Positions 1-47,344 of a stretch of DNA of 64,000 nucleotides are shown here, in pieces; positions within the stretch are counted from its first letter, which is position 1, and each line of letters begins with the position of its first letter. Origin of the DNA: Pannonibacter carbonis. Lineage in GTDB: Bacteria > Pseudomonadota > Alphaproteobacteria > Rhizobiales > Stappiaceae. The stretch is from contig NZ_PUDR01000004.1 of the NCBI RefSeq assembly GCF_003012935.1, positions 1 to 64,000 on the forward strand, read 5' to 3'. The notes under the pieces are model-generated. The model saw only the letters and a list, made by a program, of their open reading frames with translations, had not been told where the DNA came from and did no database searches. The position numbers and the translations under genes are program-made.

Positions 1-90
1 CGCCCGCATACTGCCCATGGCGGACAACCACCCGCCGTGGTCTACTTCAACGCAACCCAAACCGATCAGCAGGTGCAGGCAGTAGCTTAA
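1..90 (+). CDS. IS3-type transposase, C-terminal end (partial)
   Basis: Frame 1 is open from the window edge to a TAA at 88-90 and encodes 29 residues. It begins RPHTAHGGQPPAVVYF and ends with TDQQVQAVA. The RPH..GG.PPA.VY pattern followed by DQQ.Q.VA is the usual C-terminal tail of DDE transposases (OrfB) of the IS3 family. The catalytic DDE core lies outside the window, so activity cannot be judged. Family assignment rests on this short tail only. Confidence 0.7.
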   Translation, partial: RPHTAHGGQPPAVVYFNATQTDQQVQAVA

Positions 91-365: not shown

Positions 366-1061
366 TCAGGTTCGCGCCTTCTCGAAAGCGCCCCATGCTG
401 CCTCGAAGGCAGTGAAGTCGAAACCTGCAGCCCTGGCCGGGTCCAGGATCAGACGCTCGGTCGCCTGAAGTCTTGCGATCGCATCGGCGAGGTGCGGGAC
501 TGTCTCAGGCGGAATAATCAGCGCGCCATGGCGGTCGGCATGGATCAGGTCCCCGGCTTTCACAGCCAGACCGAAAATGCGCACCGGTTCACCGACAGAG
601 CGCACATGCACGAAACCGTGGCTCGGGCCGACGCTGCCCGCGATGACCGGGAAGCCGGCCGGCAGATCCCCCAGGTCACGCACGACGCCATTGGTCAGGG
701 CACCGGACATCCCGAAACCCTTATGCACCGTGGTGTTGATCTCACCCCAATAGGCACCAATCGCATGCGGCCAGTCGAGATCCTCAATGACCGCGATGGA
801 CGGTTTGGGAGCATCATGCATGGCCCGGTAATAGGCCATGCGCCTGGCCCGAATGACATCGGCCGGCTCCGTCGGCGGAGCGACTGCGGCAATCTGCGCC
901 GTCATGGCATAGCCGACCACGGCCGTTCCGGGCTCGGTGCAGATCATGGTGCCACGCGTGAAGGCTGAAAAGCCGCGCCGCCCCTGCACCACTTCAATGG
1001 CGTTGCAGACTGTCGGTGTATCAACACGCCGCAACAGGGCGAGAAGGTCCTGGTTCATCAT
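366..1061 (-). CDS. RraA-like / 4-hydroxy-4-methyl-2-oxoglutarate aldolase family protein
   Basis: About 231 residues, the usual size for the RraA-like family (annotated as dimethylmenaquinone methyltransferase-like or HMG/CHA aldolase). The N-terminus has DTPTVCNAIE, close to the family's TxxxxDA/NA start. The middle has GEINTTVHKGFGMSGALTNG, then VVRDL, which matches the G-x-x-x-(D/G)xxxR(D) substrate/metal loop of the aldolases. Members either cleave 4-hydroxy-2-oxoacids to pyruvate or bind RNase E; the operon argues for a catabolic aldolase. The start overlaps the hydrolase stop by ATGA, with GGAGG just upstream, so I reject the GTG at 1076. It is the last gene of the leftward operon. The precise substrate is unknown. 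Confidence 0.75.
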   Translation of the reverse strand: MMNQDLLALLRRVDTPTVCNAIEVVQGRRGFSAFTRGTMICTEPGTAVVGYAMTAQIAAVAPPTEPADVIRARRMAYYRAMHDAPKPSIAVIEDLDWPHAIGAYWGEINTTVHKGFGMSGALTNGVVRDLGDLPAGFPVIAGSVGPSHGFVHVRSVGEPVRIFGLAVKAGDLIHADRHGALIIPPETVPHLADAIARLQATERLILDPARAAGFDFTAFEAAWGAFEKART

Positions 1062-1756
1062 TCCTCCAGCCAGCACCGCAGCGCTGCAATCGTGTCCTGC
1101 GGACGTTCCAGGGGAGGCAAGTGCCCTGCCCCATCGATAATCACCAGCCGCGACTGCGGCAGGAGAGCATGCATCAGGTCATGCCTGTCGCGCGGGCAGA
1201 GCCGATCCTCAGCGCCCATCAACACAAGAGCGGGTCCCTGAAACCTTGCCAGCACCTCCTGCCGGTCGGCGCGGTTGCGCAAAGCCAGCGACTGGCGGAT
1301 GAAGACCTCCGTTCCCAGTGACAGCCCCATCTCGAGGCAAAGCGCCTCGAAAGGGCCGGTATCCTGCCCGGAGGCAAAATAGTTCGGGATCATGTCCGCT
1401 CGCAGGACATCCTCAAGGCTGCCGGCCCGGGCGCGGGCCATCTGGGGCCCGCGCCGGGCCTGGACCTCCGGCACTTCAGCGCGTGGATTGGTGTCAAGCA
1501 AGGCGAGACGCTCGACCCGCTCGGGCGCCTGGGCCAGCATTTCCATGGCAAGGATGCCGCCCATCGACAGGCCCGCCAGGGCAAAGCGCGGTGGCGCCTG
1601 CCGGAGTGCTTCCGCCGCGAGCGCGGCCATGCTGTCCTCCCCCACCGGAGCCACGTGCCGAATGTCACGCGGCTGCAGGGCCTGCGGAACCGTCCCCCAC
1701 ATGCGGGCATCGCACATCATGCCGGGAACCAGCAGCAGTGGCAGATCAGGTGTCAT
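1058..1756 (-). CDS. Alpha/beta-fold hydrolase
   Basis: 232 residues. The nucleophile elbow GLSMGG lies near residue 62-67 (Ser in G-x-S-x-G), an acid candidate is in GAEDRLCP, and the catalytic His is in GAGHLPPLERP near the C-terminus, so the triad is complete. There is no signal peptide, so it is cytoplasmic. ATG is preceded by GGAG at good spacing. It sits 26 bases after the cupin gene and overlaps the RraA-like gene, so it belongs to the same transcript. Most likely an esterase, lactonase or C-C hydrolase acting late in the pathway. The family is too broad for a substrate call. Confidence 0.8.
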   Translation of the reverse strand: MTPDLPLLLVPGMMCDARMWGTVPQALQPRDIRHVAPVGEDSMAALAAEALRQAPPRFALAGLSMGGILAMEMLAQAPERVERLALLDTNPRAEVPEVQARRGPQMARARAGSLEDVLRADMIPNYFASGQDTGPFEALCLEMGLSLGTEVFIRQSLALRNRADRQEVLARFQGPALVLMGAEDRLCPRDRHDLMHALLPQSRLVIIDGAGHLPPLERPQDTIAALRCWLEE

Positions 1757-1782
1757 TGGCAGCTCCAGGTCATGTCGGATGC

Positions 1783-2751
1783 CTAGAGGAGACGGCCGGT
1801 TGCGCCTGCAGGATCGTCGGTGTTGAGGATACGGTAGAGGCTCGCCTCTCCGGTCATCGATGGGGTCAGGCTGTGTTCGAGCCCGGGAGGAATGGCCGCC
1901 GTGTCGCCGGGATTGAGCGCGGTCGAGCCACCGCTCCAGCTCAGCCGCCAGTGACCACGCACCGGCATCAGCACCTCATGCCGGTCCAGTGCATAGGCGG
2001 TTTCCGGCAACGAATTTCGCGACAGGAATTCGACGTCGAAGCCCGGCCTGTCCCGAAGCTTGCCCTGCGCTCCGATGACCTTGGCCGGTTGCCGGTCGGA
2101 CAGAGCCATCAGGTCCCAGTATCGTGCGATGCAATTGGGAATAACTTCAGCGGTTGTCGGCTCCGGGAACGCCTTCAGTTCTTCCTCGGTCAGAAGCGGC
2201 ATCGGACCGATGCCGTCAGGAAGGCGCTCGCCCTTCTTGCTGTCATAGAGCCTGCCATTGGCGCCCAGAACGAGCCCGTAGTCGCTGGCCTCCGAAATCA
2301 CCTGCGGTGCCCAGATGACGCCGCCGCCGGCGTCGTCACCGCCGAGAATGGCCATGATCATCCCGTAGTCGAGGCCGATGTTCTCGAAGCCGCGAAAGAT
2401 GCCGGTCGGAATGTTGAAGATATCTCCCTCTTGCAGCACCACCTCCCCTGCCGTTCCGTGGCGGCCCCAGAAGAACCGCCAACGGCCCTTGAGGACAAAG
2501 AACACCTCAGCGGTGCGATGCGAATGCAGCGAGTTGCGACACTTCGGCGGCTGACCGGCCGCACCGATGTTGAAGCCTGGCGTCTCCCGGATATGGACAT
2601 GCTGGTCCGGACTTTCCGACACGCCGCCACCGATGATGGTGAAGTTCTCCTTCTGGTTCGAACCGGGCGTATGGGCGTCGATGAAGGCGGTCTTGCAGGG
2701 ACGCAAGTCGCCATAGCGGACGATACGGGCTTCCATTTCTTGCGGGGTCAT
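1783..2751 (-). CDS. Two-cupin-domain protein
   Basis: About 322 residues with two cupin barrels. The first has NSLHSHRTAEVFFVLKGRWRF and GDIFNIPTG (residues about 70-130), giving HxH...E metal ligands. The second has HEVLMPVRGHWRLSW and GDTAAIPPGLEH (about 255-310) and a more degenerate ligand set. The layout recalls bicupin dioxygenases of the gentisate/homogentisate type, but other bicupins are isomerases or decarboxylases. The start was taken at 2751 because GAGG lies 9 bases upstream; ATG 2760 or 2787 would give 325 or 334 residues. It lies between a SnoaL-like gene and the hydrolase in the operon. Reaction unknown. Confidence 0.75.
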   Translation of the reverse strand: MTPQEMEARIVRYGDLRPCKTAFIDAHTPGSNQKENFTIIGGGVSESPDQHVHIRETPGFNIGAAGQPPKCRNSLHSHRTAEVFFVLKGRWRFFWGRHGTAGEVVLQEGDIFNIPTGIFRGFENIGLDYGMIMAILGGDDAGGGVIWAPQVISEASDYGLVLGANGRLYDSKKGERLPDGIGPMPLLTEEELKAFPEPTTAEVIPNCIARYWDLMALSDRQPAKVIGAQGKLRDRPGFDVEFLSRNSLPETAYALDRHEVLMPVRGHWRLSWSGGSTALNPGDTAAIPPGLEHSLTPSMTGEASLYRILNTDDPAGATGRLL

Positions 2752-2793
2752 GGGGGTCATCCTCAGGTCGTGTCCGGGGGCAGACATCAGGTG

Positions 2794-3768
2794 TCAGAGA
2801 TCACCGGTGTGGAGCAGGATCTGTCGCCAGATCGCGGTTTCATCGAACAGGGTGTATTCGCGGCGCAGACCCCAGGGGCCGAACTCGGCATGGGTGATGC
2901 CGAGCACATAGACCTCGGCACCGGACGGAGCGCCGAAGCGACCCCAGCCGGAGTGCTTGCCGCAGAGGCTCCAGCGAACCGCCGCCCGTGGGGGCATCTT
3001 GGGGTCGTCCCGACCGATGACGTGATCGATACGGAATTCCGCAGAAGGGAAGGCCGCGCGCAGTTCCATCCAGAACCTGTCCGCCGCCCCGGGTCCATGG
3101 TCCGTGACGCCGCCGGGGTACTCCAGCTGTGCGGCACGGTCATACTCGCGTCCGATGCGGGCAAAGTCCGCGTGCATGATGCCGCCGAGCAGATCGGCCA
3201 AAGCTTCGCCTGAAGCATCGTCATTTCCTCTGCCCTTATAGGGACCAGGGAGATCGGTGGCAGGCGTCAGCGGCCGCAGGCAGGTCTCCGGCCCGCCCTC
3301 GCGCGCGATCTGCTGGCGGGCATAGTCCTTCGGGTCAAGCCCGAGCTGGCGCACGATCGCGCCCTGATCCCGGATCAACCACTCGTCATCGATCATGTTG
3401 TTGCGGGCATGGCAGTCGGCCATGATGCGATAGACGAGGCGCTTGCCGGTGGCCGGACCATAGACGCCCGATCCAATGTGCGTCGCCGTCGACAAAATCC
3501 GGTGCGATGACAGCATCCCGGTTTCCGGCGTTCCGGACCAGATCACATCCTCGCCGAGCAACGTGCGGTCCGGGAATTCGGCGAGTGTCGCCATGGTCGC
3601 TGCGATCACCCCGGCGTTGCCCTGCGCGACCGAGGCTGGCGTTCGCACGATGATGTCGGGCGCGTAGTAGCGATGCAGGGTCGCAAGACCACGGTCTTCC
3701 CAGATTTCCTTGGTAATGCCGAGAATGTAATGCGGGAAATCCGTCCAGTGCGGGTCAAAGCCTTTCAT
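2794..3768 (-). CDS. Double SnoaL-like (NTF2-fold) protein, copy 2
   Basis: 324 residues forming two tandem NTF2/SnoaL-like units of about 150 residues each. The first has TLHRYYAPDIIVRTPASVAQG and FPDRTLLGEDVIWSG; the second has IGREYDRAAQLEYPGG and FPSAEFRIDHVIG, the F-P-D/S-hydrophobic signature of SnoaL-like polyketide cyclases. It shares the ending D-(E/N)-W-x-x-(R/V)-D-x-x-x-x-x-RQ-(L/I/M)-G with two other genes here (5551-6594, 12550-13632), but carries it in the first domain (DDEWLIRDQGAIVRQLG). ATGA overlap with the LacI gene indicates translational coupling. The fold serves isomerases, dehydratases, hydrolases and cyclases, so the chemistry is open. Confidence 0.75.
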   Translation of the reverse strand: MKGFDPHWTDFPHYILGITKEIWEDRGLATLHRYYAPDIIVRTPASVAQGNAGVIAATMATLAEFPDRTLLGEDVIWSGTPETGMLSSHRILSTATHIGSGVYGPATGKRLVYRIMADCHARNNMIDDEWLIRDQGAIVRQLGLDPKDYARQQIAREGGPETCLRPLTPATDLPGPYKGRGNDDASGEALADLLGGIMHADFARIGREYDRAAQLEYPGGVTDHGPGAADRFWMELRAAFPSAEFRIDHVIGRDDPKMPPRAAVRWSLCGKHSGWGRFGAPSGAEVYVLGITHAEFGPWGLRREYTLFDETAIWRQILLHTGDL

Positions 3769-4790
3769 GGCGTATATCCTTCGGGAATTCGCGAGGACTT
3801 GCGGACGACGAGCGGGCCATCGATCCGGATCTTTTGCGGCCCCGTGGTCTGGTCGATCTGGCCAAGGATCGCCTCAACCGTCGCAGACACCATGCGGTTG
3901 ACCGGCTGGCGGATCGTGGTCAGTGCGTAGGTTGGCCAGGCAGCCAGGGGCACATCGTCGTAGCCGACGATCGACACATCACCGGGTACGGACAAGCCGA
4001 GTCCGAAGCGAAGTTCGTCCATCACAGCAAAGGCCATGTAGTCGTTGCCGACAAAGATCGCATCCGGCCGTTCAGGTCCGGCGCAAAGTTCGCGCGCCAC
4101 GGCCGCCGCCCGCTCACGGGAATACATGCCATCAACCATCGCCACGATTGGCAACCCGGCCTCTTCCATCGCCGACTGGAAGCCGGCAGCCCGGTCACGG
4201 CCGGTCGAGGCGCCCTGCCAGCCCATGATATGGGCGATGCGTTCATGCCCCGCGGCGATCAGGAACTCCGCCGCCCGACGTCCGCCAGCAATGTTGTCCG
4301 AGGTCACATCCGTCAGGCGCGGATCGTTCTGGCCGCGGTTGAAATTGACCACCGGAATGCCGAATGAGGCCAGGCGGCCGGTGAGATCGTTCGACAAGGA
4401 AACCGATGCGGTGATGATGCCGTCGACCCGGTAGTCAATAAGCTCCTGCACCACTTCGGCCACCTTCTCGGTCGAGTTCTCGGCCATGAAAACGAGGATG
4501 TGATAGCCGCGCTCCTGCAGGGCACGTGACAACCGTTCCAGCGCGATCGGATAGAACTGGTTTTCCAGATAGGCGACCACGAGACCGATGATCCGGGTTC
4601 GCCCGGTAATCATGGCCCGAGCAAGCGGATCAGGCCGGTAGCCGAGAGTCTCGGCAGCGGCTCGGACCTTGTCGACGGTGGCTTTCGACGCCGAAGCGCC
4701 CGGCGTGAAGACGCGGCTGACTGCTGACTGGCTGACACCCGCCAGCCGCGCGACATCCTGTGCAGTGATCTTGGGGGAGGTCTCGTTCAT
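3765..4790 (-). CDS. LacI-family transcriptional regulator
   Basis: 341 residues. The N-terminal helix-turn-helix and hinge read TAQDVARLAGVSQSAVSRVF...LGYRPDPLARAM, typical LacI. The rest is a periplasmic-binding-like effector domain (RTRIIGLVVAYLENQFYP, VDGIITAS, GIPVVNFNRG, DVSIVGYDDVPLAAW). The start at 4790 uses the ATGA overlap with the SDR stop rather than the in-frame ATG at 4802. It is unusual that the regulator is embedded inside the operon, between the SDR and a SnoaL-like gene. Its likely targets are the twin operators at 12397-12438, giving autoregulation with the operon. The effector is probably a sugar-like pathway substrate or intermediate. Confidence 0.92.
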   Translation of the reverse strand: MNETSPKITAQDVARLAGVSQSAVSRVFTPGASASKATVDKVRAAAETLGYRPDPLARAMITGRTRIIGLVVAYLENQFYPIALERLSRALQERGYHILVFMAENSTEKVAEVVQELIDYRVDGIITASVSLSNDLTGRLASFGIPVVNFNRGQNDPRLTDVTSDNIAGGRRAAEFLIAAGHERIAHIMGWQGASTGRDRAAGFQSAMEEAGLPIVAMVDGMYSRERAAAVARELCAGPERPDAIFVGNDYMAFAVMDELRFGLGLSVPGDVSIVGYDDVPLAAWPTYALTTIRQPVNRMVSATVEAILGQIDQTTGPQKIRIDGPLVVRKSSRIPEGYTP

Positions 4791-5554
4791 TCGGCTGTCC
4801 ACCCGCCATCGACCAGAAGATGCGTGCCCGTCACGAGGGCCGATGCGTCACTGGCGAGAAAAACGATTGGCCCCATCAGGTCGGTGATCTCGCCGACACG
4901 CCCCAGCTTGATTTTCGACAGGATCCAGGCCCGCCGCTCCGGATTGGCCAGGGTCTGTTCCGCCAGCGGTGTGCGGATGAACGTCGGGCAAAGCGTGTTG
5001 ACCCGAATGCCATGGGCACCCCACTCCAGCGCCATGGCTTTGGTCATGCCCTCGAGTGCGTGTTTTGTGGCGCAATAGACGGCCCGGTCCGGCCCGCCGA
5101 CCAGACCCATCTGGCTGGAGACATTGATGAGACTGCCGGGACGCCCGGCGGCGATCAGCCCACGCGCGACTTCCCGGGTCAGGAAGTAAGCAGCTTTCAG
5201 GTTCAGCGCGAGTGCGGCGTCGAAATCGGTTTCCTCCGTCTCCAGCGCCGGCGAGTGCCGCGCAAGCCCGGCCGAATTGACCAGAATATCGAACGGCCCA
5301 AGACGGTTGACGCAGTCGGCCGCGGCAACGCGGTCGGTGATGTCGAGGCTGCAGGTCTCAGCCAGTCCGCCACTCGCGCGAATGGCCTCTGCCACGGCCA
5401 TGAGTTCCGTTTCACGGCGAGCGACCAGGGTGACATGGGCCCCGGCCTCAGCCAGCGCGGCAGCTGCACCTAGGCCGATACCGGAACTGGCACCTGTCAC
5501 TAGGGCACGACGGCCGTCAAGGCGGAAACTGGGAAGTTTTGGCAGGTCGATCAT
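4787..5554 (-). CDS. SDR-family NAD(P)-dependent oxidoreductase
   Basis: 255 residues, classical short-chain dehydrogenase length. The Rossmann motif TGASSGIGLG is near residue 20, NVSSQMG carries the catalytic Ser, and YCATK provides Tyr and Lys; NAG appears as NSAG. The C-terminus ends ASALVTGTHLLVDGGW, as in gluconate 5-dehydrogenase/3-oxoacyl reductase-like members. No signal peptide, so cytoplasmic. It overlaps both neighbours by ATGA (5551-5554 and 4787-4790). It probably oxidises or reduces a hydroxyl of the imported substrate. Coenzyme preference was not determined. Confidence 0.88.
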   Translation of the reverse strand: MIDLPKLPSFRLDGRRALVTGASSGIGLGAAAALAEAGAHVTLVARRETELMAVAEAIRASGGLAETCSLDITDRVAAADCVNRLGPFDILVNSAGLARHSPALETEETDFDAALALNLKAAYFLTREVARGLIAAGRPGSLINVSSQMGLVGGPDRAVYCATKHALEGMTKAMALEWGAHGIRVNTLCPTFIRTPLAEQTLANPERRAWILSKIKLGRVGEITDLMGPIVFLASDASALVTGTHLLVDGGWTAE

Positions 5555-6594
5555 GGGGTTAATCCATCTGGAACGGTGATTGGCCCAAGGTTCCTTGCCT
5601 TGTTGAAAGACGCAAGCCGGGCGAACACATCAACCCCAATCTGGCGATAAAGATCGAGCAGATCGACCAGTACCCAGTTCTCGCGGATCAGACCGTCTTC
5701 CAGGCGCCAGAAATCGAGACTGCGCAAAAGCACCTCACGGCCTGCTGGGGCAATGCCCATCCAGCCGTCACCACTGAGTGTCAGCCGCATGTTGGGCCAG
5801 CCGGTCTCGCAGACGTAGTTGCCCTCGCCGATCCAGTGCGACATGAGATCGCCCATCGCGTCGAGCTTGCGGTCGGGCATGGCACTCAGGAACGGGATCT
5901 GATGCCAGTTTCGGAAACCGGCGATGCTACGCCCAGTGCCGATCCCGGCCGGCCCGTACCAGTTGAAGCGCGGATGCCAGTAACGATCGAGCTGCATCAC
6001 CTGGGGGTCGAGGTCAGCCGGATGCCGGCACAGATCCGTGAGCATGGCAATCACATGCGCCAGCGCTGCCTGTCCGTCACCTGATACGGTCAGGCCATCG
6101 CCGCTCATCGGGGCTGGCGTACAGACAAAAGCGCCCATCTGCGGCGCCATCGGCCAGACGCCGGCCTGCATCATCAGTTCCGGCAGGTCCCAGATCGCCT
6201 GCATCTCGACGATCTGCCCCTCCTTGAGCCGGAAGAACTCGTGGTAACGCATGTGCACGAGATGACCGGTCGGGCGAATGCCGAGGAACGGGCGCAAGAA
6301 TGTGCCCATGTAGTTGCCCATGCAACCGACCCAGTCCTCGCCCTCAGGGCTGGAACCCGCCATGACGATCATGTCACGCCGCTCGAGATCCGGTATGGCT
6401 GTCAGCAACGGCCCGAGCGCCTGCAGCTCGAACTCCTCCGGTCCCGTCAGCGTGCCGAAGGGATGGCAAAGCGCGAGACGGGCATCGTCTGCAAAGGCTG
6501 CCGCAAGCACGGGAAGAAGGCGATCCGCTGACGGAGTTTCAAGCGCCTTCCGCAAGGGGCGCAGAGCGTCCTTCAGTTCGGCTGGCGTTGCCAT
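5551..6594 (-). CDS. Double SnoaL-like (NTF2-fold) protein, copy 1
   Basis: 347 residues with two SnoaL-like domains. The first (about 20-165) has IPDLERRDMIVMAGSS and ends IWDLPELMMQAGVWPMAPQMG. The second (about 195-345) has WHPRFNWYGPAGIGTGRSI and LIRENWVLVDLLDLYRQIGVDVF. The sequence is clearly paralogous to the divergent gene at 12550-13632 over its whole length. The start at 6594 lies just after the HisD-like stop at 6599; a longer frame back to 6783 merely overlaps the HisD-like gene. The fold lacks a universal catalytic residue, so function must come from context: an isomerase, dehydratase or hydrolase step between the dehydrogenases and the aldolase is plausible. Confidence 0.78.
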   Translation of the reverse strand: MATPAELKDALRPLRKALETPSADRLLPVLAAAFADDARLALCHPFGTLTGPEEFELQALGPLLTAIPDLERRDMIVMAGSSPEGEDWVGCMGNYMGTFLRPFLGIRPTGHLVHMRYHEFFRLKEGQIVEMQAIWDLPELMMQAGVWPMAPQMGAFVCTPAPMSGDGLTVSGDGQAALAHVIAMLTDLCRHPADLDPQVMQLDRYWHPRFNWYGPAGIGTGRSIAGFRNWHQIPFLSAMPDRKLDAMGDLMSHWIGEGNYVCETGWPNMRLTLSGDGWMGIAPAGREVLLRSLDFWRLEDGLIRENWVLVDLLDLYRQIGVDVFARLASFNKARNLGPITVPDGLTP

Positions 6595-6598
6595 GGAC

Positions 6599-7909
6599 TT
6601 ACTCCGCTGCGGTGCCATAGGCCACGTTGCGTCCGCCATAACGGCGAACACGCACGTTGCACTGTTCCGCATGGCCGACAAAACCTTCCAGCATGCACAG
6701 GCGCGAACCATAGGCACCGATGGTCGCTGCCGCTGCGTCGGTCGTGACCTTCTGGTAGGAGTGGGTCTTGAGGAACTTGCCAACCCAGAGACCGCCCGTG
6801 TAGCGACCGGCCTTGCGTGTCGGCAGCGTATGGTTCGTGCCGATCACCTTGTCGCCATTGGCTACATTGGTCCGCGCACCCAGGAACAGCGCGCCATAGG
6901 AATGCATCTTGTCCAGGAACCAGTCGTCCCGGTCGGTCATCACCTGCACGTGCTCGTAGGCCATGTCGTTGGCGACGCTCAGCATCTCGTCGTAGGTATC
7001 GCACAGGATGACATCGCCATAGTCGGCCCAGCTGACCGCAGCCGTCTCGGCCGTTGGCAGGATCTTCAGGAGGCGGTCGATCTCCTCCATTGTTGCCTCG
7101 GCAAGGCGGCGGGAATTGGTGATCAGGCAGGCCGGAGAATTGTAGCCATGCTCGGCCTGGCCAAGCAGATCCGTCGCACAGATCTCTGCGTCCACCGTAT
7201 CGTCGGCGATCACCATGGTCTCGGTCGGCCCAGCAAAGAGATCGATGCCAACGCGGCCGAACAGCTGGCGCTTGGCCTCGGCCACGAAGGCATTGCCTGG
7301 CCCCACCAGCATGTGGACCGGCTCGATGCTCTCGGTACCGATTGCCATGGCCCCCACCGCCTGGATACCGCCCAGCACATAAATCTCATGCGCGCCGCCC
7401 AGCTGCATTGCGGCGACAATGGCCGGATGCGGTTCGCCCTTCACCGGCGGAGCAGAGGCGATGATGCGAGGAACCCCGGCGACCGAGGCCGTCAGAACCG
7501 ACATATGCGCCGAGGCAACCATCGGAAACTTGCCGCCCGGCACGTAACAGCCGACCGACTGCACCGGAATGTTGCGATGGCCGAGAATGACGCCCGGAAG
7601 GGTCTCGACCTCGATATCGGTCATCGACGCCCGCTGGGCCTCGGCAAAGCGGCGGATCTGAACCTGGGCGAAGCGGATGTCCTCCATGTCGCGCGGACTG
7701 ACCTTCTGCATCGCCGCCTCGATCTCGGACGGGGTCAGGCGGAAGCGCGGTGCGTCATAGCCGTCAAACTTCCGGGCAAGCTCACGCACCGCCGTGTCGC
7801 CGCGCGTCTCGATGTCCTTCAGGATAGTCTCGACTGTGGTCCGGACCTTTGCATCGTCCTCGGCACGGGCTGCTTCGGGCTTGCCGGACTTCAGGTGCTG
7901 GATGGCCAT
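6599..7909 (-). CDS. Histidinol-dehydrogenase-like, zinc-dependent alcohol dehydrogenase (HpsN-type)
   Basis: 436 residues. HisD-superfamily active-site elements are all visible: LLGQAEHG (Gln and His zinc ligands), AYEHVQV (catalytic Glu-His), [13 protein letters not shown] (Asp ligand and substrate loop) and FVGHAEQ (His ligand). In canonical HisD these residues carry out an NAD-linked four-electron oxidation of an alcohol to a carboxylate. The stretch [14 protein letters not shown] resembles HpsN, the 2,3-dihydroxypropane-1-sulfonate dehydrogenase. The neighbourhood has no other his gene, so I infer a catabolic dehydrogenase oxidising a terminal CH2OH. It lies between the ABC ATPase and a SnoaL-like gene. 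The true substrate is unknown. Confidence 0.85.
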
Positions 7910-7948
7910 GAATGATCTCCCTGGAATTGCGCTCGGCGCTTGTTGTTG

Positions 7949-8995
7949 TCAGGCCGAGAGGCGCGCGCCGCTGCGCGCGTCGAACAAGTGGCAGATGCGG
8001 GCGGGCACATGGGCTGCAATCGGCTGACCGATGCTGCCTGCAAAGGCCTTGGGCGCCTTGATCGCAACCAGCGTGCCGCCAACCTGTACCGTTGCCATCG
8101 AACTGTCGCCGAGCAGTTCCATCGAATAGATCGGGGCAGTGATCTCGCCGCCGTCTGCAAGCGCAGCATCTTCGGCGCGAAAGCCGAGCGTGACCGGCCC
8201 ATCGGGGGCCTGCAACCCGGGAATGCGCACATGCGGCGCTTCAAAGATACCTGCGGTGACAACACCTTCGATCAGGTTCATCGCCGGGCTGCCGATAAAG
8301 CTCGCCACAAAGGTGTTAGCCGGGCGATCATATATCTCAAGCGGCGTGCCAACCTGCTGGACCTCGCCGCGCCGCATCACGACAACCCGATCGGCGAGCG
8401 TCATCGCCTCGATCTGGTCATGGGTGACGTAGATCGTCGTGGTCTTCAGTTCATGATGCAGGTTCTTGATCTGGGCTCTTGTCGACACGCGCAACTTCGC
8501 GTCCAGGTTCGACAACGGCTCGTCCATCAGAAACACCTTCGGCTTGCGGACGATGGCGCGGGCAAGCGCCACGCGCTGGCGCTGTCCCCCGGAGAGGGCT
8601 GCCGGCTTGCGCTGAAGAAACTCTGTCAGTTCCACGGTTTCGGCTGCGCGCATCACACGGTCATGATGCTCGGCCTCCGGGATCCGCCGCACCTTCAACG
8701 GAAAGCGGATGTTCTCGTAGACGCTCATGGTCGGGTAGAGACCGTAGGACTGGAACACCATCGCAATGTCGCGATCCTTTGGTTCCAGATCATTGACCCG
8801 GCGGCCACCGATCAGGATGTCACCGTCGGTGGCATCCTCGAGACCTGCGATCATCCGCATGGTCGTGGTCTTGCCGCAGCCCGAGGGGCCAAGCAGAACC
8901 AGGAACTCGCCATCTGATATCGTCAGGTCCAGTGTCTGGACGCCCGTGAAGCTGCCCCAGCGCTTGGACAGGTTGCGAAGTTCGATATTGGCCAT
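7949..8995 (-). CDS. Sugar ABC transporter ATP-binding protein (MalK/UgpC type)
   Basis: 348 residues. Walker [11 protein letters not shown]-loop FQSYGLYP, signature [14 protein letters not shown], Walker [14 protein letters not shown] and H-loop [13 protein letters not shown] occupy the first 230 residues. A C-terminal MOI/TOBE-like regulatory region follows ([12 protein letters not shown]), as in MalK/UgpC ATPases. It energises the two permeases encoded immediately upstream. The stop of the preceding permease is 4 bases away. Confident for function class; the sugar is unknown. Confidence 0.92.
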
Positions 8996-8999
8996 CGGC

Positions 9000-9884
9000 T
9001 TATCCTTTCACCGCGCCGGCGGTCAGGCCGCTGACGATCTGGCGCTGGAAGAACATCACCAGCACGAACAGCGGTGCCGTGACGGAGACAACGGAGGAAA
9101 CGGCAAACATCACATTTCCCTTGGTCTGCGTCGTGCCAAGGAACGAGGCGATCTTCGGGATCATGGTCTGGTTTTCCTTCGACAGCAGCATCGCGGTCAC
9201 CGCGAAGTCATTGTAGGCAAGCAGGAAAGAGAACAGGCCGGTGGTGATGACGCCGGGCCACATGACCGGAATGATCACATAGCGAAAGGCCTGGAACCGG
9301 GAACAGCCATCGACCATGGCGCTCTCGTCGAGGTCCTTTGGAATATTGCGGAAAAAGCTCGTCAGCATCCAAAGGGTGAAGGGCTGGTTGATCGCGACAA
9401 GGACAATGATCGCGGTCGGCAGGTGGCCCCACAGGTTCCACTCGAAGAAGGGCAGCAGATAGCCGGACACCAGCGTCACCGGCGGCATGGCGCGGAATAC
9501 CAGCGCCACGAGAAGCAGCCAGAAGGCATACCGGTAGGACGAACGGGCCAGGGCGTAACCGCCGAGCGTCCCGAAGGTCAGCGAGATACAAACCACACTG
9601 ACGACCACGATGGCGGAGTTCAGAGCAGCACGCCAGAACTCCTCCTGTACCCAGGCGCCGACATACCCGGTTGCGGTAAAGCTGCTGCCGGTCTCCGCTG
9701 TCGTCAGGGGACCGGTGATGGCATTCATCCAGTCGGCCTTGGAGAAGAAATCGCCTTCGACCTTGAAGCTGCCCCAGAACGTCCACAGGAACGGAAAGGC
9801 AGCAATCACAAGCCAGACGACCAGAAAGCCGTTGAGCGCAATCAGCAGCGCCGGTGGACGCCGGTCGGCGATACGGGTTGTCAT
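9000..9884 (-). CDS. Sugar ABC transporter permease (MalG type)
   Basis: 294 residues with about six hydrophobic helices. The EAA loop appears as [31 protein letters not shown], and a characteristic MalG ending (GLTAGAVKG) is present. The N-terminal helix follows [10 protein letters not shown]. It starts inside the upstream permease gene by a 4-bp overlap (9881-9884). With the MalF-type permease it forms the membrane channel of the importer. Confidence 0.92.
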
Positions 9885-10909
9885 GCTGCGCCCCTCCCAT
9901 AGGTTTTCCAGGTGCGGACGAGAACCGGTGACAACAACACGACCACACCCAGAATGGTCAGCACGGACGTAGCCGCCGCCGAAGACAGCAGGCGGGTTTC
10001 GCCGCCGAGGTCGGAGTAGATGAAGTAGCTGAGGCTCTGGGCGTGGGCCGATGCGTTGAAGCTGACGATCGGCTCGAAGACGCGGAAATTGTCCATGATC
10101 TTGATCAGCGCCATGAAGGTCGTCAGCGGGAGAAGGTGCGGGACGATCACATAGCGGATCCGCTCCCAGCGGCTCGCACCGTCAATCATCGCGGATTCAA
10201 GCGTGTCCTGCGGAACGGTTTGCAGGCCGGCATAATAGACGACGAAGGCAAAGGGCGCCGACGACCAGATGCCATAGACCATGAGCATTGCCCACATCAG
10301 CGGCGTCGAGGCCTTGACCGACAGGTTGGGATCACCGGCCAGAGACTGGATCAGAGCGCCCAACACGCCGCGGGCATCAACCATCCAGAACAGGATCAGG
10401 GCGCCCACAAGCGGTGTGATGATCATCGGCAGCAGCGAGACAAATATCATCGGTCCGCGCAGGAACCTCGGCACGGCATTGACTGCGAGGGCGACGACAA
10501 AGCCGAGCAGGATCGACAGCGGCGTCACGACCAGGGTGTAGGTCAGCGTGAACAGCAAGGCACCATAGAAGGGCAGGTTCAGCAGACCATCCAGGAAGGT
10601 GGATATTCCGTCAGCGGTCGACGCCAGCACTGCCACCTCGGAGAAGGCCAGATGGTTCCGGTCCGTGTAGATGCTCCCGCCGACAAAGCGGCCAAGCGGC
10701 TCGGCTTCCCGCAACGCTGCGGTTGCAGCGAGATCAACTGTCGTGGTCTTGGTGCAGCCAAACACCGAGCAATTTTCAACCTCCCGAACAACCTGCTGAT
10801 GCGGCGCAAAGACAGACTGCATCAGCACAGAAACGATCGGCAGGGCAATGAAGAGGAACATGGCTGCCGCAGAGGGCAGAAAAAACCAGAAAAAAGTGCG
10901 ATGCTTCAT
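9881..10909 (-). CDS. Sugar ABC transporter permease (MalF type)
   Basis: 342 residues. It begins MKHRTFFWFFLPSAAAMFLF, a first transmembrane helix, and continues with a long periplasmic insertion containing a Cys pair (NCSVFGCTKTT), then five or so helices and the EAA loop VPQDTLESAMIDGASRWERIRYVIVPHLLPL. The start at 10909 has AGAGG 8 bases upstream; the longer frame to 11041 is not hydrophobic and lacks a ribosome site. The Cys pair in the loop is unusual and may form a periplasmic disulfide. Confidence 0.9.
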   Translation of the reverse strand: MKHRTFFWFFLPSAAAMFLFIALPIVSVLMQSVFAPHQQVVREVENCSVFGCTKTTTVDLAATAALREAEPLGRFVGGSIYTDRNHLAFSEVAVLASTADGISTFLDGLLNLPFYGALLFTLTYTLVVTPLSILLGFVVALAVNAVPRFLRGPMIFVSLLPMIITPLVGALILFWMVDARGVLGALIQSLAGDPNLSVKASTPLMWAMLMVYGIWSSAPFAFVVYYAGLQTVPQDTLESAMIDGASRWERIRYVIVPHLLPLTTFMALIKIMDNFRVFEPIVSFNASAHAQSLSYFIYSDLGGETRLLSSAAATSVLTILGVVVLLSPVLVRTWKTYGRGAA

Positions 10910-11065
10910 TGAGGCCGCCTCTCGATCCGGACGGAAAAGGATCCCAGCTGCGCGTCCCGACCGTGCCAAAGGCAGCGGCCGGAACGCCCTCGCGTCTTCC
11001 GGAGGAGAGCAGATGGGTCGAACGGGCAGCGCCAGGGGCAAGTGACCTGGCCGGTACCCTGCCTG

Positions 11066-12322
11066 TTACTTCAGGAAGCCCTTTTCGCGGGCCGCAGCCG
11101 TATAGGCGGCTTCGATGTCGGCGAGGGTTGTCTTGGCGTCCTCCTTGCCGGTCAGGAAGTCGGCGATATTGTCCCCCAGCGCCGTGTGCAGCAGCCCCAT
11201 ATAGGGCAGCATCGGGTAAGGCTTGGCCCCCATGGTCATCGTCTGCATGACGCCTTCATTGATCGGAGCCGGCTTGTAGCCTTCAATCATCCAGACAGCT
11301 TCCCGCATCGTGGCATCATTGAGGATTTCAGGGCCCGAACCGCGCTTCATCGCAATGAAAGTTGCCTCGGCATCTGCGTCGGAGATGTTCTTGGCGACGG
11401 TCCAGCCGTCCCACCACAGCGTCGTCGCAGGAATTGCCCCTCCGCCGACGGTCATCGGCGCGCCGACCATGGTGTTCTCGTAAACTTCCGGCTTGGAGCC
11501 CTCGGTATCGACCAGCACGCCAGTGCGCGAGCCCCACATGTTCATCAGCGCGACGTTGCCGGCCTCCCATTCCGCCGACGTGGCGTTGGAATCGTGGGTG
11601 AGATAGTCCGGGTTCATGTAGCCGGTCAGCTTCTTCATCATTTCCAGCGCAGCCACGCCCTGGTCATTGTTCACCGCAACTTCCGCCGTTCCGGGTTTGA
11701 AGAATTCGCCGCCCATCCCGATGTACATGTTGACGAATTCCTGGCCCAGGTTCCAGCCGGCGGCATAGGCGCCACCCACCGGGTACTGCATGATTCCGGC
11801 CGCGCGGATCTTCTCGGCAGCCGCAAGCATCTCTTCGTAGGACTTCGGCGGCTGGACACCAACCTTCTCCAGCACGTCCTTGCGATAAACCTGATGCTGC
11901 GCGTTTGCCATGAAGGCGACGGCCATCACCTTGCCATCGATCGTGACAAGGCGGTTCTTCGGAATATCCTGACCATGGGCTGCAACCAGTTCATCGAGCG
12001 GGCGAATGACGCCTTCGTTCAACAAGGCCACGATGGAAGACGTCGCGATCACGGCGGACGTATACTCTGCGGGATTGCCGCTCATGCCGGCCAGGTTGAT
12101 CTTCTGATGGTCAGCGGTCAGGTTCGACTTCACTTCAACGGCCGAAGTGGCACAGGTCGCGGCGTTTGCCGCCACCGTCTTGATCGCCGGGAACTCGTTG
12201 CCAACAATTGAAACGCGGCCCGACTTGATACCGCAGTCAGCATTTGCAATCCCGACGGTGCAGGCGAGCGCCGTAGCACTCAACAGAACAGTCTGCGCAA
12301 GGCGCTGGATGGAAATGGTCAT
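11066..12322 (-). CDS. Sugar ABC transporter substrate-binding protein
   Basis: 418 residues with a Sec signal (MTISIQRLAQTVLLSATALACTVGIANA) and a mature cluster-1 solute-binding protein: NNDQGVAALEMMKKLTGYMNPDYLTHDSNATSAEWEAGNVALMNMWGS-type segments and a C-terminal lobe ending AYTAAAREKGFLK. GGAGG lies 6 bases before the ATG at 12322. It is the promoter-proximal gene of the 12-gene operon and sits about 75 bases downstream of the twin operator. It should capture the pathway substrate in the periplasm; ligand identity cannot be read from sequence. Confidence 0.9.
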   Translation of the reverse strand: MTISIQRLAQTVLLSATALACTVGIANADCGIKSGRVSIVGNEFPAIKTVAANAATCATSAVEVKSNLTADHQKINLAGMSGNPAEYTSAVIATSSIVALLNEGVIRPLDELVAAHGQDIPKNRLVTIDGKVMAVAFMANAQHQVYRKDVLEKVGVQPPKSYEEMLAAAEKIRAAGIMQYPVGGAYAAGWNLGQEFVNMYIGMGGEFFKPGTAEVAVNNDQGVAALEMMKKLTGYMNPDYLTHDSNATSAEWEAGNVALMNMWGSRTGVLVDTEGSKPEVYENTMVGAPMTVGGGAIPATTLWWDGWTVAKNISDADAEATFIAMKRGSGPEILNDATMREAVWMIEGYKPAPINEGVMQTMTMGAKPYPMLPYMGLLHTALGDNIADFLTGKEDAKTTLADIEAAYTAAAREKGFLK

Positions 12323-12396
12323 CGTTCTCCTCCGTGTTGCCCGCACTGCCCCAGTTTTCTGTTTTTCAGCGCGGCTGCCACTTCACGATTGCAAGC

Positions 12397-12438
12397 TTTG
12401 CAAACGTATGCAACATCAAAATTGCATACGTTTGCAAA
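12397..12438. promoter_or_regulatory. Twin LacI-type operator (perfect inverted repeat, 17-bp arms)
   Basis: TTTGCAAACGTATGCAA at 12397-12413 and TTGCATACGTTTGCAAA at 12422-12438 are exact reverse complements, separated by 8 bases. Each arm is itself a 16-bp near-palindrome built from half-site TTGCAWAC, the size and style of a LacI-family operator. The centres are 24 bp apart. It lies between the divergent substrate-binding-protein gene and the third SnoaL-like gene, so one regulator, probably that at 3765-4790, could control both directions. Confidence 0.8.
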
Positions 12439-12549
12439 ATTTGGTCAAGCAGGGCATTTTGACTGCGTGACCGGCGGAAACGCAGTGGCTGCATGGCCGC
12501 AACCATGCCCGCGAAATCAGCCGTGCTTGCAAGGGGGAGAGCTTGAAAG

Positions 12550-13632
12550 ATGCTGGAACTGACCGAAGGCTTTGACGCAAGCGCGACACCAGGGGCATCG
12601 ATGCGCCGAGCGCTCCATGCCGCTCTCCTGCGGATCGCGGAGAGCCCTGTCGACAGGCTTCAGACCGAGCTTGCGGCCCTTGCCGCGCCGGATTGCCAGT
12701 GGCGTGCCGCCCATCCGATGAACGAAGTCAGCAGCACTGCCGCCGCGCTTGCCCGGATCTGGCAGCCGTTGAAGCAGGCCTTCCCGGATCTGGAGCGACG
12801 CGACACGATCTTCCTTGCCGGAAGCTACCTGGGCAAGACGTTCTTCGCCGCAACGGGTGGCTACTGCGGCACGATGCGTGGCGACTGGCTCGGCATACCG
12901 GCGACCGGACGCACGATCTATCTTCGCTATGGCGAGGTCTGGCAGTTGGACGCCGATGGCCGCGTGGTCCAGGCCAATTTGTTGTGGGATGTGCTGGATG
13001 TCATGCGGCAGGCTGGCGTCTGGCCCCTGGGGCCATCGATGGGCGTTGAAGAAGCATGGCCGGGGCCAATCACGGCCGATGGTGTGCGTCTGTCACCGTC
13101 CGATCCCGCCCTTGGCCGGGCCAGCCTTGCCCAGACGCTCGCCATGCACAAGACATTGGCCGAGTTCGATGATCAAGGAATGCTGTCCCGCGAGGCCCTC
13201 ATTGCCATGCCGCAGAAGGATCACTGGCATCCGAAAATGATGTGGTACGGCCCGGCCGCAATCGGCACGACGCGCGGCCTCGACGGCTTCGTCACCGGTC
13301 ACCAGCTTCCTTTCCGCATCGCATTTGCCCGGCCGCAGGGTACATTCGAGGAGGTCACGGCCGAGCGCGCCCGCCATGGAGCCGGTCACTACATCCGCAT
13401 CGGCGACGGCCCTTATTCCGTGACCGGCGGCTGGCCTTCGGTCTATGCCCAGCATGTCGGCGGCGGCTTTTGCGGCATGCCACCGTCGGGCAAGCCGGTG
13501 TTCATGCGCGTGATGGATTTCTACTTGCACAACGAACAGCTTATCCGCGAAAACTGGGTGCCGCTCGACATGCTGGACCTCTTCCGGCAGATGGGTGTCG
13601 ACCTGCTGGAGCGCATGCGCCAGCAGATCTAG
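12550..13632 (+). CDS. Double SnoaL-like (NTF2-fold) protein, copy 3, divergent
   Basis: 360 residues, two SnoaL-like domains. The first contains FPDLERRDTIFLAGSYLGK, YLRYGEVWQLDADG and VMRQAGVWPLGPSMG; the second contains DHWHPKMMWYGPAAIGTTRGLDG-like and LIRENWVPLDMLDLFRQMGVDLL segments. It matches the product of 5551-6594 along its whole length, so the two are paralogues acting in the same pathway. A GGGGGAGAG tract about 10 bases before the ATG serves as ribosome site. It is transcribed away from the main operon from the shared operator region. No signal peptide. Confidence 0.78.
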   Translation: MLELTEGFDASATPGASMRRALHAALLRIAESPVDRLQTELAALAAPDCQWRAAHPMNEVSSTAAALARIWQPLKQAFPDLERRDTIFLAGSYLGKTFFAATGGYCGTMRGDWLGIPATGRTIYLRYGEVWQLDADGRVVQANLLWDVLDVMRQAGVWPLGPSMGVEEAWPGPITADGVRLSPSDPALGRASLAQTLAMHKTLAEFDDQGMLSREALIAMPQKDHWHPKMMWYGPAAIGTTRGLDGFVTGHQLPFRIAFARPQGTFEEVTAERARHGAGHYIRIGDGPYSVTGGWPSVYAQHVGGGFCGMPPSGKPVFMRVMDFYLHNEQLIRENWVPLDMLDLFRQMGVDLLERMRQQI

Positions 13633-42426: not shown

Positions 42427-43134
42427 TCAGTCCAGCGCCGCGAAATAGGCTGCCAGCGACGCGATTTCCTCGTCTGTTAGCCGGCTTGCCATCATCTGCA
42501 TGACCGGATGGGGCCTGAGTTTCTGTTTGTAGGCGTGCATCGCGGCCACGAAATCATCCTGTGGCCAGCGGGTGATGGCGGGAATGCCCTGATCCGAACC
42601 GTCGCGCTGATGGCAGGTGGTGCATTCCGAGGACAGGTATTCGCCATAGGCAGGATCGCCCTGGATCGCGAGGATCTTCGGGTCGAGTTCCGGGACCGTC
42701 GGCCGGGCCGTTGGCGATGCCTCCGGGATGTTCTGCGGCTTGTCCGACCAGGTCCGCAAATAAGCCATCAAGGCGGATCGGTCCTGCTGCTCCTTCATGC
42801 CGCGATAGCTCATGCGCGTGCCCGATACGAGGCTGCGCGGATTGGCCAGATAGGCGTCCAGGGTCTCGAGTGTCCAGGTCAGGCCATCCGCCCCCATCCG
42901 AGACATGCCTTTGGAGTAGGAGAAACTCGCCAGGGATCCTGCCCTTCGGTCGAACACGCCATTCAGTTGCGGCCCGACCCGGTTGACCGCGCCCTCCCCC
43001 AGTTGGTGACAGGCAGCGCAATCGCGCTTGAACAACTGCTCCCCACGAACCGGATCTCCGATTGTGTCCGCCTGGACGGTCCCGGCCGAAAAACCAAGAA
43101 CCGTCGCAAGCGTGAGGAGAAGGCGCGGCTTCAT
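42427..43134 (-). CDS. soxE: SoxE, diheme c-type cytochrome
   Basis: 235 residues, Sec signal MKPRLLLTLATVLGFSAGTVQA. Two heme c sites: CAACH near residue 40 and CTTCH near residue 175, with a downstream Met in each half as candidate axial ligand (MSYRGM, MQMMASR). This is the electron-accepting cytochrome subunit of the SoxEF complex. The start follows soxD by 3 bases, so they are co-transcribed. Confidence 0.9.
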   Translation of the reverse strand: MKPRLLLTLATVLGFSAGTVQADTIGDPVRGEQLFKRDCAACHQLGEGAVNRVGPQLNGVFDRRAGSLASFSYSKGMSRMGADGLTWTLETLDAYLANPRSLVSGTRMSYRGMKEQQDRSALMAYLRTWSDKPQNIPEASPTARPTVPELDPKILAIQGDPAYGEYLSSECTTCHQRDGSDQGIPAITRWPQDDFVAAMHAYKQKLRPHPVMQMMASRLTDEEIASLAAYFAALD

Positions 43135-43137
43135 CGC

Positions 43138-44289
43138 TTACTTTCCTACACTTGCCAGATAGGCAATCACCGCCGCACGCTCGTCTTCCTTCTTGATCCC
43201 GGCAAAGGCCATCTTGTTCTTGGGCAGGAAGCCCTTGGGATCGGTCAGGTAGGCATCCAGCGTTGAGGCATCCCAGACCATGCCACCCGCCCCGGCATCC
43301 AGAAGCACCTTGGAGTACTTGAAACCCTCGACAATGCCGGCCTTTGCCCCGACAACGCCGTTCAGCAGCGGTCCGGTACCATTCTTGGCTCCCTCGCCGA
43401 CCTTGTGACAGGCGGCGCATTTCTTGAAGACGGTCTTGCCTTTTTCGATCAGGGCCGGATCAGCCGTGGCGACGGCGGCCGGTGCAGACGGTGCGGCCGG
43501 GGCTTCTGCTGGCGCGGCGGCAGGAGCGGGTGAAGCCGCAGCAACCTGAGTTTCCGCGGGAGGGGGAACAACAGCTGGCGCTTGCGCCCTGTCAGGCTGC
43601 GCTCCGATGGGCGGCAGGCTGCCAGCCGGGCGTCCGTCCGGGTCTTGGGGGGTGACGTTCAGCTCGATGGCCCGCTTGGTGACTTTCACTGGAGCCACAC
43701 AGTTGGACATGCAGGGCTCTTTGGTGAACAGCGGATACTCGGTCTGTGGCCGGTCGTCGGGATAGAAACCGTCGGCATTCGGCAGCTTCACGTCGGTGAA
43801 GTTCTCATGCGACAGGACAAAATCATCTTCGACGAGCCCGTTCGAATAGAGCAGGAACGCGGTGATCGCGTAGGTTTCATCGATGGAGACCGTCTGCGCA
43901 GCACCAAAGGGCATCGACCGGTGGACGTAATCCCAGACAGTCGAGAGATAAGGCCAGTAGCTGCCGATGGTCTTGACCGGGCGGCGGTCTGTCAGACTGC
44001 CCTCACCGCCGGCCAGCACGGGCCAACTGTCGAGACCCTCGGCGAACTCGCCATGGCACGCGGCGCATTTTTCGGCGAATACCTCCTCACCGGTGGCGAC
44101 ATCGCCGGAACCGGGCCGAAGTCCCGTCCCGTCCGGCAGAACGGAGAGGTCCCAGGCCGCAATTTCCTCGGGCAAGGCCTCGCGGCCAAGGCCCAGCTTG
44201 CCGGCGATGGCCGGGGTGACAAGGCTGCCGAGCATGAGGCCCGAAGCAACCAGCGCTGCGGTCAGGCGGAACTCAGGCAACTTCGACAT
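43138..44289 (-). CDS. soxD: SoxD, diheme c-type cytochrome subunit of sulfane dehydrogenase
   Basis: 383 residues with signal peptide ending near AIAGKLG. The first heme site CAACHGEF is near residue 80. A Pro/Ala-rich linker (about 225-285, many PAPA repeats) leads to a second cytochrome domain with CAACHKVGEG and PLLNGVVG. This two-domain layout with an A/P linker is typical of SoxD. It overlaps soxC by 17 bases; ATG 44289 has GGGAGG upstream. Together with SoxC it removes sulfane sulfur from SoxY in the periplasm. Confidence 0.92.
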   Translation of the reverse strand: MSKLPEFRLTAALVASGLMLGSLVTPAIAGKLGLGREALPEEIAAWDLSVLPDGTGLRPGSGDVATGEEVFAEKCAACHGEFAEGLDSWPVLAGGEGSLTDRRPVKTIGSYWPYLSTVWDYVHRSMPFGAAQTVSIDETYAITAFLLYSNGLVEDDFVLSHENFTDVKLPNADGFYPDDRPQTEYPLFTKEPCMSNCVAPVKVTKRAIELNVTPQDPDGRPAGSLPPIGAQPDRAQAPAVVPPPAETQVAAASPAPAAAPAEAPAAPSAPAAVATADPALIEKGKTVFKKCAACHKVGEGAKNGTGPLLNGVVGAKAGIVEGFKYSKVLLDAGAGGMVWDASTLDAYLTDPKGFLPKNKMAFAGIKKEDERAAVIAYLASVGK

Positions 44290-45541: not shown

Positions 45542-45563
45542 GGCGAACTCTCCTTGGGTCATC

Positions 45564-47255: not shown

Positions 47256-47344
47256 CCCGATCTCCAGGTTTGCGGGCAAGGCGATACCATCGCGCCGCAG
47301 CGCGTGAGCAGGCTCCCGCATTAATCAGTGTGGTATGGTTGCGA

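Follow-up and report, generated by a model that had tools for sequence, protein, structure and literature searches.

A predicted LacI-controlled island of sugar-type operon character in Pannonibacter carbonis joins a recurring, probably catabolic core to importer-linked tandem SnoaL proteins

The closest described relative of the dehydrogenase considered here is HpsN, the 2,3-dihydroxypropane-1-sulfonate (DHPS) 3-dehydrogenase of the HisD family (PDB 8v35 and 8wwe), for which roles have been assigned to a Gln/His/Asp/His zinc site and to the pair Glu318/His319. In CpHpsN, His126 of a GRYAH motif (G-R-Y-A/S-H) separates the DHPS dehydrogenases from the histidinol dehydrogenases with their GSAPL motif (PMC11382572). 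Parallels for other enzymes are functional: LumW, LumY and LumX of lumichrome breakdown act as a hydrolase, then a cupin hydratase, then a retro-aldolase yielding pyruvate (PMC12746152), and the gamma-formaldehyde lyases LdpA and PcfL, which act on lignin dimers, provide a precedent for cofactorless catabolic lyase chemistry (PMC11323797). The locus analyzed here is a thirteen-gene island at positions 366-13632 of a 64,000-nt stretch of Pannonibacter carbonis DNA (bases 1-64000 of contig NZ_PUDR01000004.1, our C28, from a genome of 4.78 Mb), hereafter the window. It is a LacI-controlled operon of the sugar type, a familiar kind, equipped with an uncommon set of enzymes, and it probably imports and degrades a sugar-like nutrient. 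In the open-access full text searched, no publication on this gene set came up, in line with a first-pass annotation that knew of no described pathway containing it, nor did any paper combining "histidinol dehydrogenase" with either "SnoaL" or "ester cyclase".

The thirteen genes form a real unit under what is predicted to be one shared control switch. Two perfect copies of a near-palindromic LacI-type operator (TTGCAWACGTWTGCAA) lie inside the divergent promoter between the genes for the periplasmic solute-binding protein (SBP) and for SnoC, the first at 12398..12413 (TTGCAAACGTATGCAA) and the second at 12422..12437 (TTGCATACGTTTGCAA), each with 0 mismatches. The window thus contains 2 sites where 0.02 were expected; the rest of the genome has none within one mismatch and a single one with two mismatches (C12:27995). 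Allowing one mismatch, 23 of 121 genomes, P. carbonis among them, contain the consensus TTGCATACGTATGCAA; the figure for a reversed control was 2 of 121. Allowing two, the palindrome gave 72 sites in 51 of 80 loci found through the bicupin gene, compared with a mean of 0.135 sites and a maximum of 6 in a shuffled control (200 palindromes over the 80 loci); these counts come from loci that share descent and are not independent events. Of the 72 sites, 66 precede a cluster gene by no more than about 400 bases. Eleven stand upstream of the bicupin gene, including four loci in which no other cluster genes were found (L096, L108, L123 and L126), and in the same 80 loci the operator also precedes the SnoC, SnoA, SnoD, SnoE and SnoF genes. 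Among 40 loci collected through HisD, it was present in 19 of the 20 that encode a related LacI protein with 45% identity or more (the single miss being L195) and in 0 of the 20 that do not. The LacI recognition region SQSAVSRVFTPG was observed in 32 of the 62 proteins counted, a close variant in 15, and the remaining 15 were not parsed. One predicted operator family therefore marks these operons, a conserved palindromic site at operon heads as in LacI-regulated sugar operons; the string TTGCAT is absent from the main text of a paper on LacI regulons (PMC4052901). The first-pass annotation had proposed a self-contained catabolic unit and had let the proposal hinge on co-regulation and co-conservation across genomes, both of which were found, as far as sequence reaches, in the operator and in the locus surveys. 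Separately, in two loci (L156 at 8865 and L162 at 8972, from genomes G025 and G046) a one-mismatch operator lies near an open reading frame (ORF) of about 2,356 aa, beside which stand genes that we take to be pyrC and pyrE.

All thirteen ORFs previously proposed are present in the reading frames of the window, and Pfam returned a best family above its cut-off for each of the ten proteins scanned (RraA-like, alpha/beta hydrolase, Cupin_2, SnoaL, LacI with Peripla_BP_3, SDR, Histidinol_dh and SBP_bac_1), which upholds the gene set with its positions and families; the ATPase and the two permeases were named, outside the Pfam scan, from matching relatives annotated as UgpC and as sugar or carbohydrate ATP-binding cassette (ABC) permeases. 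On the minus strand, from left to right, lie the genes for an RraA-like aldolase/decarboxylase of 236 aa (366..1076, alternative ATG at 1061; PF03737, 62.1 bits against a cut-off of 24.5), a PcaD/esterase-like alpha/beta hydrolase of 232 aa (1058..1756; PF00561), a bicupin of 334 aa (1783..2787; Cupin_2, 43.7 bits), the tandem SnoaL/NTF2 protein SnoA of 324 aa (2794..3768) and a LacI-family regulator of 345 aa (3765..4802, alternative ATG at 4790; PF00356 and PF13377). These are followed by a short-chain dehydrogenase (SDR) of 255 aa resembling KduD and gluconate 5-dehydrogenase (4787..5554; PF13561, 194.6 bits; conserved over 42 aligned sequences), the tandem SnoaL/NTF2 protein SnoB of 347 aa (5551..6594), the HpsN-related HisD-family dehydrogenase of 436 aa with the motif GKFPM (6599..7909; PF00815, 446.7 bits), an ABC ATPase of the UgpC/MalK type (7949..8995), a carbohydrate-type permease (9000..9884), a sugar-type permease with its ATG at 10909 (9881..10909) and the SBP (11066..12322; PF01547, 68.5 bits), whose nearest solved chains, all by weak matches, are mostly sugar-binding proteins. 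The divergent plus-strand gene encodes SnoC, of 360 aa (12550..13632). Each of SnoA, SnoB and SnoC contains two PF07366 stretches, as expected of the three tandem-domain proteins claimed earlier, and at 50% identity the orthologue group of SnoA has 48 members and that of SnoC 7, window included. Intergenic gaps are all of 39 bases or fewer except for 156 bases between the SBP and permease genes. The description of the genes as mostly overlapping by ATGA held for about half of the eleven junctions (3 with the listed starts, 5 with the in-frame ATGs at 1061 and 4790) and failed for the rest, SnoB following hisD after a 4-base gap with no ATGA overlap.

Gene content was surveyed in two samples. 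The bicupin scan kept the best 80 of 555 relatives with 10 kb flanks; 54 of these loci contained HisD, and the 41 with at least 17 kb were counted under identity cut-offs of our own choosing. For the HisD-based sample, 40 stretches were taken from the 71 of 347 genomes listed at E <= 1e-150, roughly by rank and with some skipped, a selection that leans to the closest relatives. By family assignment, the recurring core comprises HisD, SDR, bicupin, alpha/beta-hydrolase, LacI and one aldolase, either RraA or HpcH: the 41 HisD-plus-bicupin loci include LacI in 40, SDR in 38, hydrolase in 36, and RraA (21) or HpcH (8), never both in these 29. SnoaL genes (31 loci, with 0 to 5 copies per locus), MetE-like genes (27), amidase genes (12) and a second HisD (11) are variable. 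The SnoaL genes mostly accompany a sugar-type importer, which is found in 25 of the 31 SnoaL loci of the bicupin-based sample. Of the 31 loci with such an importer, 25 contain SnoaL and the other 6 an amidase but no SnoaL, and in the HisD-based sample SnoaL genes occur in 14 of the 14 loci with a CUT1-type importer and in 0 of the 26 without. In the six amidase loci the 10 kb flanks may have cut off a SnoaL gene; in a longer stretch of the amidase type (L182) one lies upstream of the SBP gene. Four loci with a tripartite ATP-independent periplasmic (TRAP) importer and no sugar-type ABC importer (L071, L075, L157 and L163) contain HisD, SDR, LacI, bicupin, hydrolase and RraA but no SnoaL, while L044 has both TRAP and ABC importers and an annotated ester cyclase beside the ABC genes. 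Because SnoaL genes and importer coincide and the TRAP loci carry the core without SnoaL, the SnoaL proteins look like importer-linked adapters for the ABC-imported compound, not a reaction coupled to HisD. A constant trio of SnoaL genes accompanying HisD, as had been envisaged, is not supported by these counts, in which the SnoaL number varies and SnoaL genes occur in exactly the 14 of 40 HisD-sample loci that have a CUT1-type importer.

The MetE-like protein of 27 of the 41 loci retains an HxC motif in 45 of 45 sequences and had no solved match at E <= 0.01; it found no match in the P. carbonis genome, in a search run without a positive control, so that this empty result proves nothing. Clustering of 851 unlabelled ORFs (from L039 up, with a crude ORF caller) yielded no group in more than 7 loci, and hence no extra conserved neighbour that would name the substrate. 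Several loci deviate in their accessory genes. A Halobellus limi plasmid (L041, 12800-19193) carries five ester cyclase (SnoaL-type) genes in tandem, then a MetE-like gene, with an ABC importer upstream; on a Vibrio pelagius plasmid (L040, 3382-13020) a sugar ABC importer is flanked by four SnoaL-type genes, adjoined by sarcosine oxidase and purU genes. Plasmids of Klebsiella michiganensis (L047) and Pantoea dispersa (L167) hold the core with an MFS transporter and with HpcH replacing RraA, the latter plasmid additionally having a second HisD and two divergent SnoaL-type genes. A GST-family gene stands in the operon at L012, L014, L017, L018, L128 and L164 (four genomes of one genus, Roseibium), in L164 between HisD and SnoB. 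At L095 (10864-15650), bicupin, RraA and LacI occur with a different ABC importer and no HisD, and two SDR genes come after them; the frame following the bicupin/RraA set presumably encodes an Ldh-type dehydrogenase.

The HisD-family dehydrogenase has, as had been claimed, an intact zinc site, its ligands Q251, H254, D353 and H413 and the catalytic pair E319/H320 aligning with those of HpsN. DHPS dehydrogenases are its best PDB matches, with a common HisD fold, and K354, the Lys beside the zinc Asp that lines the sulfonate pocket of HpsN, is also kept. Unlike HpsN, however, it has GKFPM in place of GRYAH, with Met130 at the position of the sulfonate-binding His126, and lies among different genes. 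Among 60 HisD proteins longer than 350 aa, that of the window being one, this motif reads GKFPM in 56, GKYPL in 2 and GKYPM in 1, with 1 not parsed; Met or Leu occupies the His126 position in 59 of 60, QAEH is kept in 59 of 60 and GDK in 60 of 60. Thirteen second-copy HisD proteins carry GRFPL (11) or GRYPL (2). By analogy, DHPS (HOCH2-CHOH-CH2-SO3-) would parallel 2-keto-3-deoxypentonate (HOCH2-CHOH-CH2-CO-COO-), and loss of the sulfonate His with retention of the Lys would fit the latter compound in the place of DHPS.

The predicted model of SnoB (pLDDT 85.2, pTM 0.87), the only SnoaL protein of the island submitted to Foldseek, consists of two NTF2 domains, with the most conserved residues in the C-terminal one. 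Among solved structures it comes closest to Lsd19 and MonBI/MonBII, tandem polyether epoxide hydrolases that also have two NTF2 domains, and to single-domain SnoaL-type cyclases. The resemblance is one of domain-level fold, whereas identity to Lsd19 and MonBI/MonBII is 13-15%, the whole-chain TM is about 0.3 and those enzymes belong to polyether biosynthesis; no polyketide synthase family was recognized among the ten Pfam-scanned island proteins. LdpA is, we assume, likewise of the NTF2 fold.

The first barrel of the bicupin bears an HxHxxxE motif (H88-x-H90-x3-E94) with Arg132 at the expected last cupin His, all invariant in 20 aligned sequences. No solved match was obtained at E <= 0.001, and profile matches to quercetin and 3-hydroxyanthranilate dioxygenases are weak (best E 0.0038). 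Some genomes (G221, G327, G417, G494 and others) have up to five partial bicupin matches each, in short frames and covering roughly the first 175 positions, which would fit a first barrel that also occurs as a separate small protein. The hydrolase, nearest to PcaD and esterases, keeps its GLSMGG serine motif and the later Asp and His in 40 aligned sequences. The R-D motif of the RraA-like protein is kept at 95% or more in 27 aligned sequences and is presumably the functional signature of RraA-like class II pyruvate aldolases; identity as a LigK/CHA aldolase was rejected (TIGR02798, 28 bits against a cut-off of 304.5). HpcH, which stands in RraA's place in other loci, belongs to the HpaI/GarL family, below equivalog cut-offs. 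Hydrolase, cupin and aldolase recall the order of functions LumW, LumY and LumX on the way to pyruvate in the lumichrome lower pathway (PMC12746152), but organism and substrate differ and the likeness is functional only.

The importer is of the sugar class, and clues to the core compound come from related loci. At L214, genes for a TRAP importer, an L-arabinonate dehydratase (PRK13016, 1046.9 bits, cut-off 882), RraA, HisD and SDR follow one another, and L215, from the same genus, has the same dehydratase arrangement. The HisD (70-71% identity), SDR (56-58%) and RraA (41-44%) of these two loci are related to those of the island; import is by TRAP, and no bicupin, SnoaL, LacI relative or operator was found in them. 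At L183, L186, L188 and L201, HisD is accompanied by a ribose-type importer and by proteins of the 3-hydroxyacyl-CoA dehydrogenase family and of the metallo-beta-lactamase fold, joined at L188 by a DHDPS-family protein and an aldehyde dehydrogenase. From the dehydratase, the ribose-type importers and the HpaI/GarL-family HpcH we infer a sugar-acid core compound. Searching for IlvD/Edd dehydratases near HisD by tblastn with the L214 protein matched only L214 and L215 (loci from L039 up), and IlvD/Edd genes, present in 30 of 30 genomes of a set that differs from the 40 HisD loci, were near HisD only in G695 and G764. Mycosporine, pantothenate, 2-C-methylerythritol and kojate were weighed as candidates and dropped for want of evidence.

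The island is probably mobile, horizontal transfer being suggested by its patchy distribution, the bicupin tree and an insertion-sequence remnant. SnoB matched in 0 of 4 congeners and in 11 of 100 other genomes (one weakly); with a threshold of E <= 1e-100, the bicupin was present in 21 of the 385 genomes searched in the class, P. carbonis among them. In the bicupin tree, the window protein belongs to a group of 22 rows (99/85). Of the 21 others, 16 are Rhodobacterales, one is an assembled genome with the label Hyphomicrobiales (L051) and four bear no label beyond bacterium, Proteobacteria or Alphaproteobacteria; the seven Stappiaceae (Roseibium) rows form a separate group. The tree is midpoint-rooted with several deep forks open and does not give the direction of transfer. 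The window begins at the first base of the contig, so that the left border of the island is a contig end at a mobile element: at 1..90 of the plus strand lies the C-terminal remnant of an IS3-family transposase, whose best match, identical to it over residues 1-17 (of 29), is a protein of Paracoccus yeei with the annotation IS3 family transposase. Beyond the window, the set is found again in Rhodobacterales and Hyphomicrobiales, in a few other Alphaproteobacteria and, incomplete or in another arrangement, on plasmids of Klebsiella, Pantoea, Vibrio and haloarchaea, and the enzyme mix is recurrent in marine, freshwater and soil bacteria. Since the set recurs across so many groups and plasmids, its nutrient is likely a common one.

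We assign a probability of roughly 0.45 to the reading in which this is a horizontally moved, LacI-repressed catabolic island of core and adapters whose sugar-like substrate follows the pathway proposed here. A neutral sugar-like compound would be taken up by the ABC importer, and the SnoaL enzymes, by cofactor-free NTF2 chemistry (elimination, hydration or retro-aldol), would convert it into a sugar-acid-like core compound. HisD would then oxidize a terminal CH2OH beside a CHOH to the carboxylate in a four-electron step, the SDR would oxidize a secondary alcohol, the hydrolase would open a lactone or ester, the bicupin would isomerize or hydrate, and the aldolase would cleave a 4-hydroxy-2-oxo acid into pyruvate and a small aldehyde acid. 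If the core has five carbons, HisD would act on 2-keto-3-deoxypentonate, an analogue of DHPS in which an alpha-keto acid replaces the sulfonate, and form 4-hydroxy-2-oxoglutarate, which the aldolase would split into pyruvate and glyoxylate. The bolder form, a widespread undescribed pathway in which tandem SnoaL/NTF2 proteins break a sugar-like compound without cofactor directly on its uptake, a HisD-class oxidase acts on a 2-keto-3-deoxy sugar acid instead of DHPS and bicupin and aldolase lead to pyruvate, is a tentative proposal and somewhat unlikely. If true, it would give the SnoaL fold a new, catabolic role, make GKFPM a third specificity class of the HisD family and correct the labels "histidinol dehydrogenase" and "ester cyclase"; the operator offers a handle, as the LacI protein and the binding protein could be used to find the compound. 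Relative to the working model of the first-pass annotation, the unit, the sugar-class importer, the HisD-family oxidation and the aldolase are supported by families, co-conservation and operator, while the sulfonate option and the fixed SnoaL trio are not supported. Several observations weigh against the reading favored here. The dehydratase neighbour occurs in 2 of 40 loci, in one genus, and the transfer of the sugar-acid clue to the island is uncertain because the dehydratase and ribose-type loci are all without bicupin, SnoaL and operator. HisD and SDR also occur without bicupin, SnoaL or importer (the 40 HisD-based loci include 13 with a bicupin and 31 with an SDR), from which it follows that the pair serves more than one pathway and that L214 may not predict the substrate of the island. 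Within the stretches examined, and by our thresholds, an importer is missing from 6 of the 31 SnoaL loci and SnoaL from 6 of the 31 importer loci; 12 of the 41 loci show no aldolase of either type there. The first bicupin barrel has Arg in place of a fourth ligand, the predicted bicupin structure (pLDDT 46.5) was rejected and left unused for fold search, and the base composition of the island (0.59-0.64) does not contrast with the rest of the window.

Among the alternatives, a lower pathway that degrades an alcohol of aromatic or heteroaromatic type, with HisD and SDR oxidizing a side chain, the bicupin opening a ring, PcaD-like hydrolase and aldolase leading to pyruvate and SnoaL or GST-like proteins acting on side chains, is unlikely, although it draws on the affinity of the hydrolase to PcaD and esterases, on the dioxygenase-like cupin profiles, on the proximity of HisD and SDR to aromatic-type genes in Novosphingobium aromaticivorans (pNL2) and on a GST, adjacent to HisD in the four Roseibium genomes, that weakly resembles maleylacetoacetate isomerase (35.7 bits, cut-off 171). 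That GST is present in 1 of 41 loci, most loci have LacI control and a sugar-type importer, no aromatic hydroxylase was recognized among the recurring neighbours (by crude clustering), and Arg replaces the usual cupin ligand, all of which speak against an aromatic substrate. We doubt still more that the locus is a loose gene neighbourhood with the SnoaL proteins outside any shared pathway: the SnoaL number of 0 to 5 and the 26 of 40 HisD loci with no SnoaL in the stretch examined would accord with such an arrangement, but SnoA and SnoB lie inside the operon, the operator precedes SnoC, SnoA, SnoD, SnoE and SnoF genes as well, and SnoaL genes are linked to the importer.

Two further explanations turn on the dehydrogenase. 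A pathway for DHPS or another C3-sulfonate in which HisD would act as HpsN appears very improbable even though DHPS dehydrogenases are its best solved relatives and the sulfonate-pocket Lys (K354) is kept, given that the His that distinguishes DHPS enzymes (PMC11382572) is here Met130, and Met or Leu in 59 of the 60 HisD proteins compared. Least credible of all, and close to negligible, is that the island protein serves as the cell's histidinol dehydrogenase in a partly biosynthetic operon. It does score above the cut-off of TIGR00069 (hisD), but a separate HisD with 38% identity to it is encoded at C12:207618, so that it is not the sole genomic copy, and its motif is GKFPM, not GSAPL. The C12 protein has GDY and PGGLASYP stretches, which we take to be typical of the biosynthetic enzyme.

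Elsewhere in the window, the first residues of the ORFs at 53019-57223 and 57450-60243 suggest what are presumably quinate/shikimate breakdown genes with a TRAP importer, and the ORFs at 42427-49548, with Tat-type signals and a CxxCH cytochrome motif, presumably represent a sulfur-oxidation cluster.

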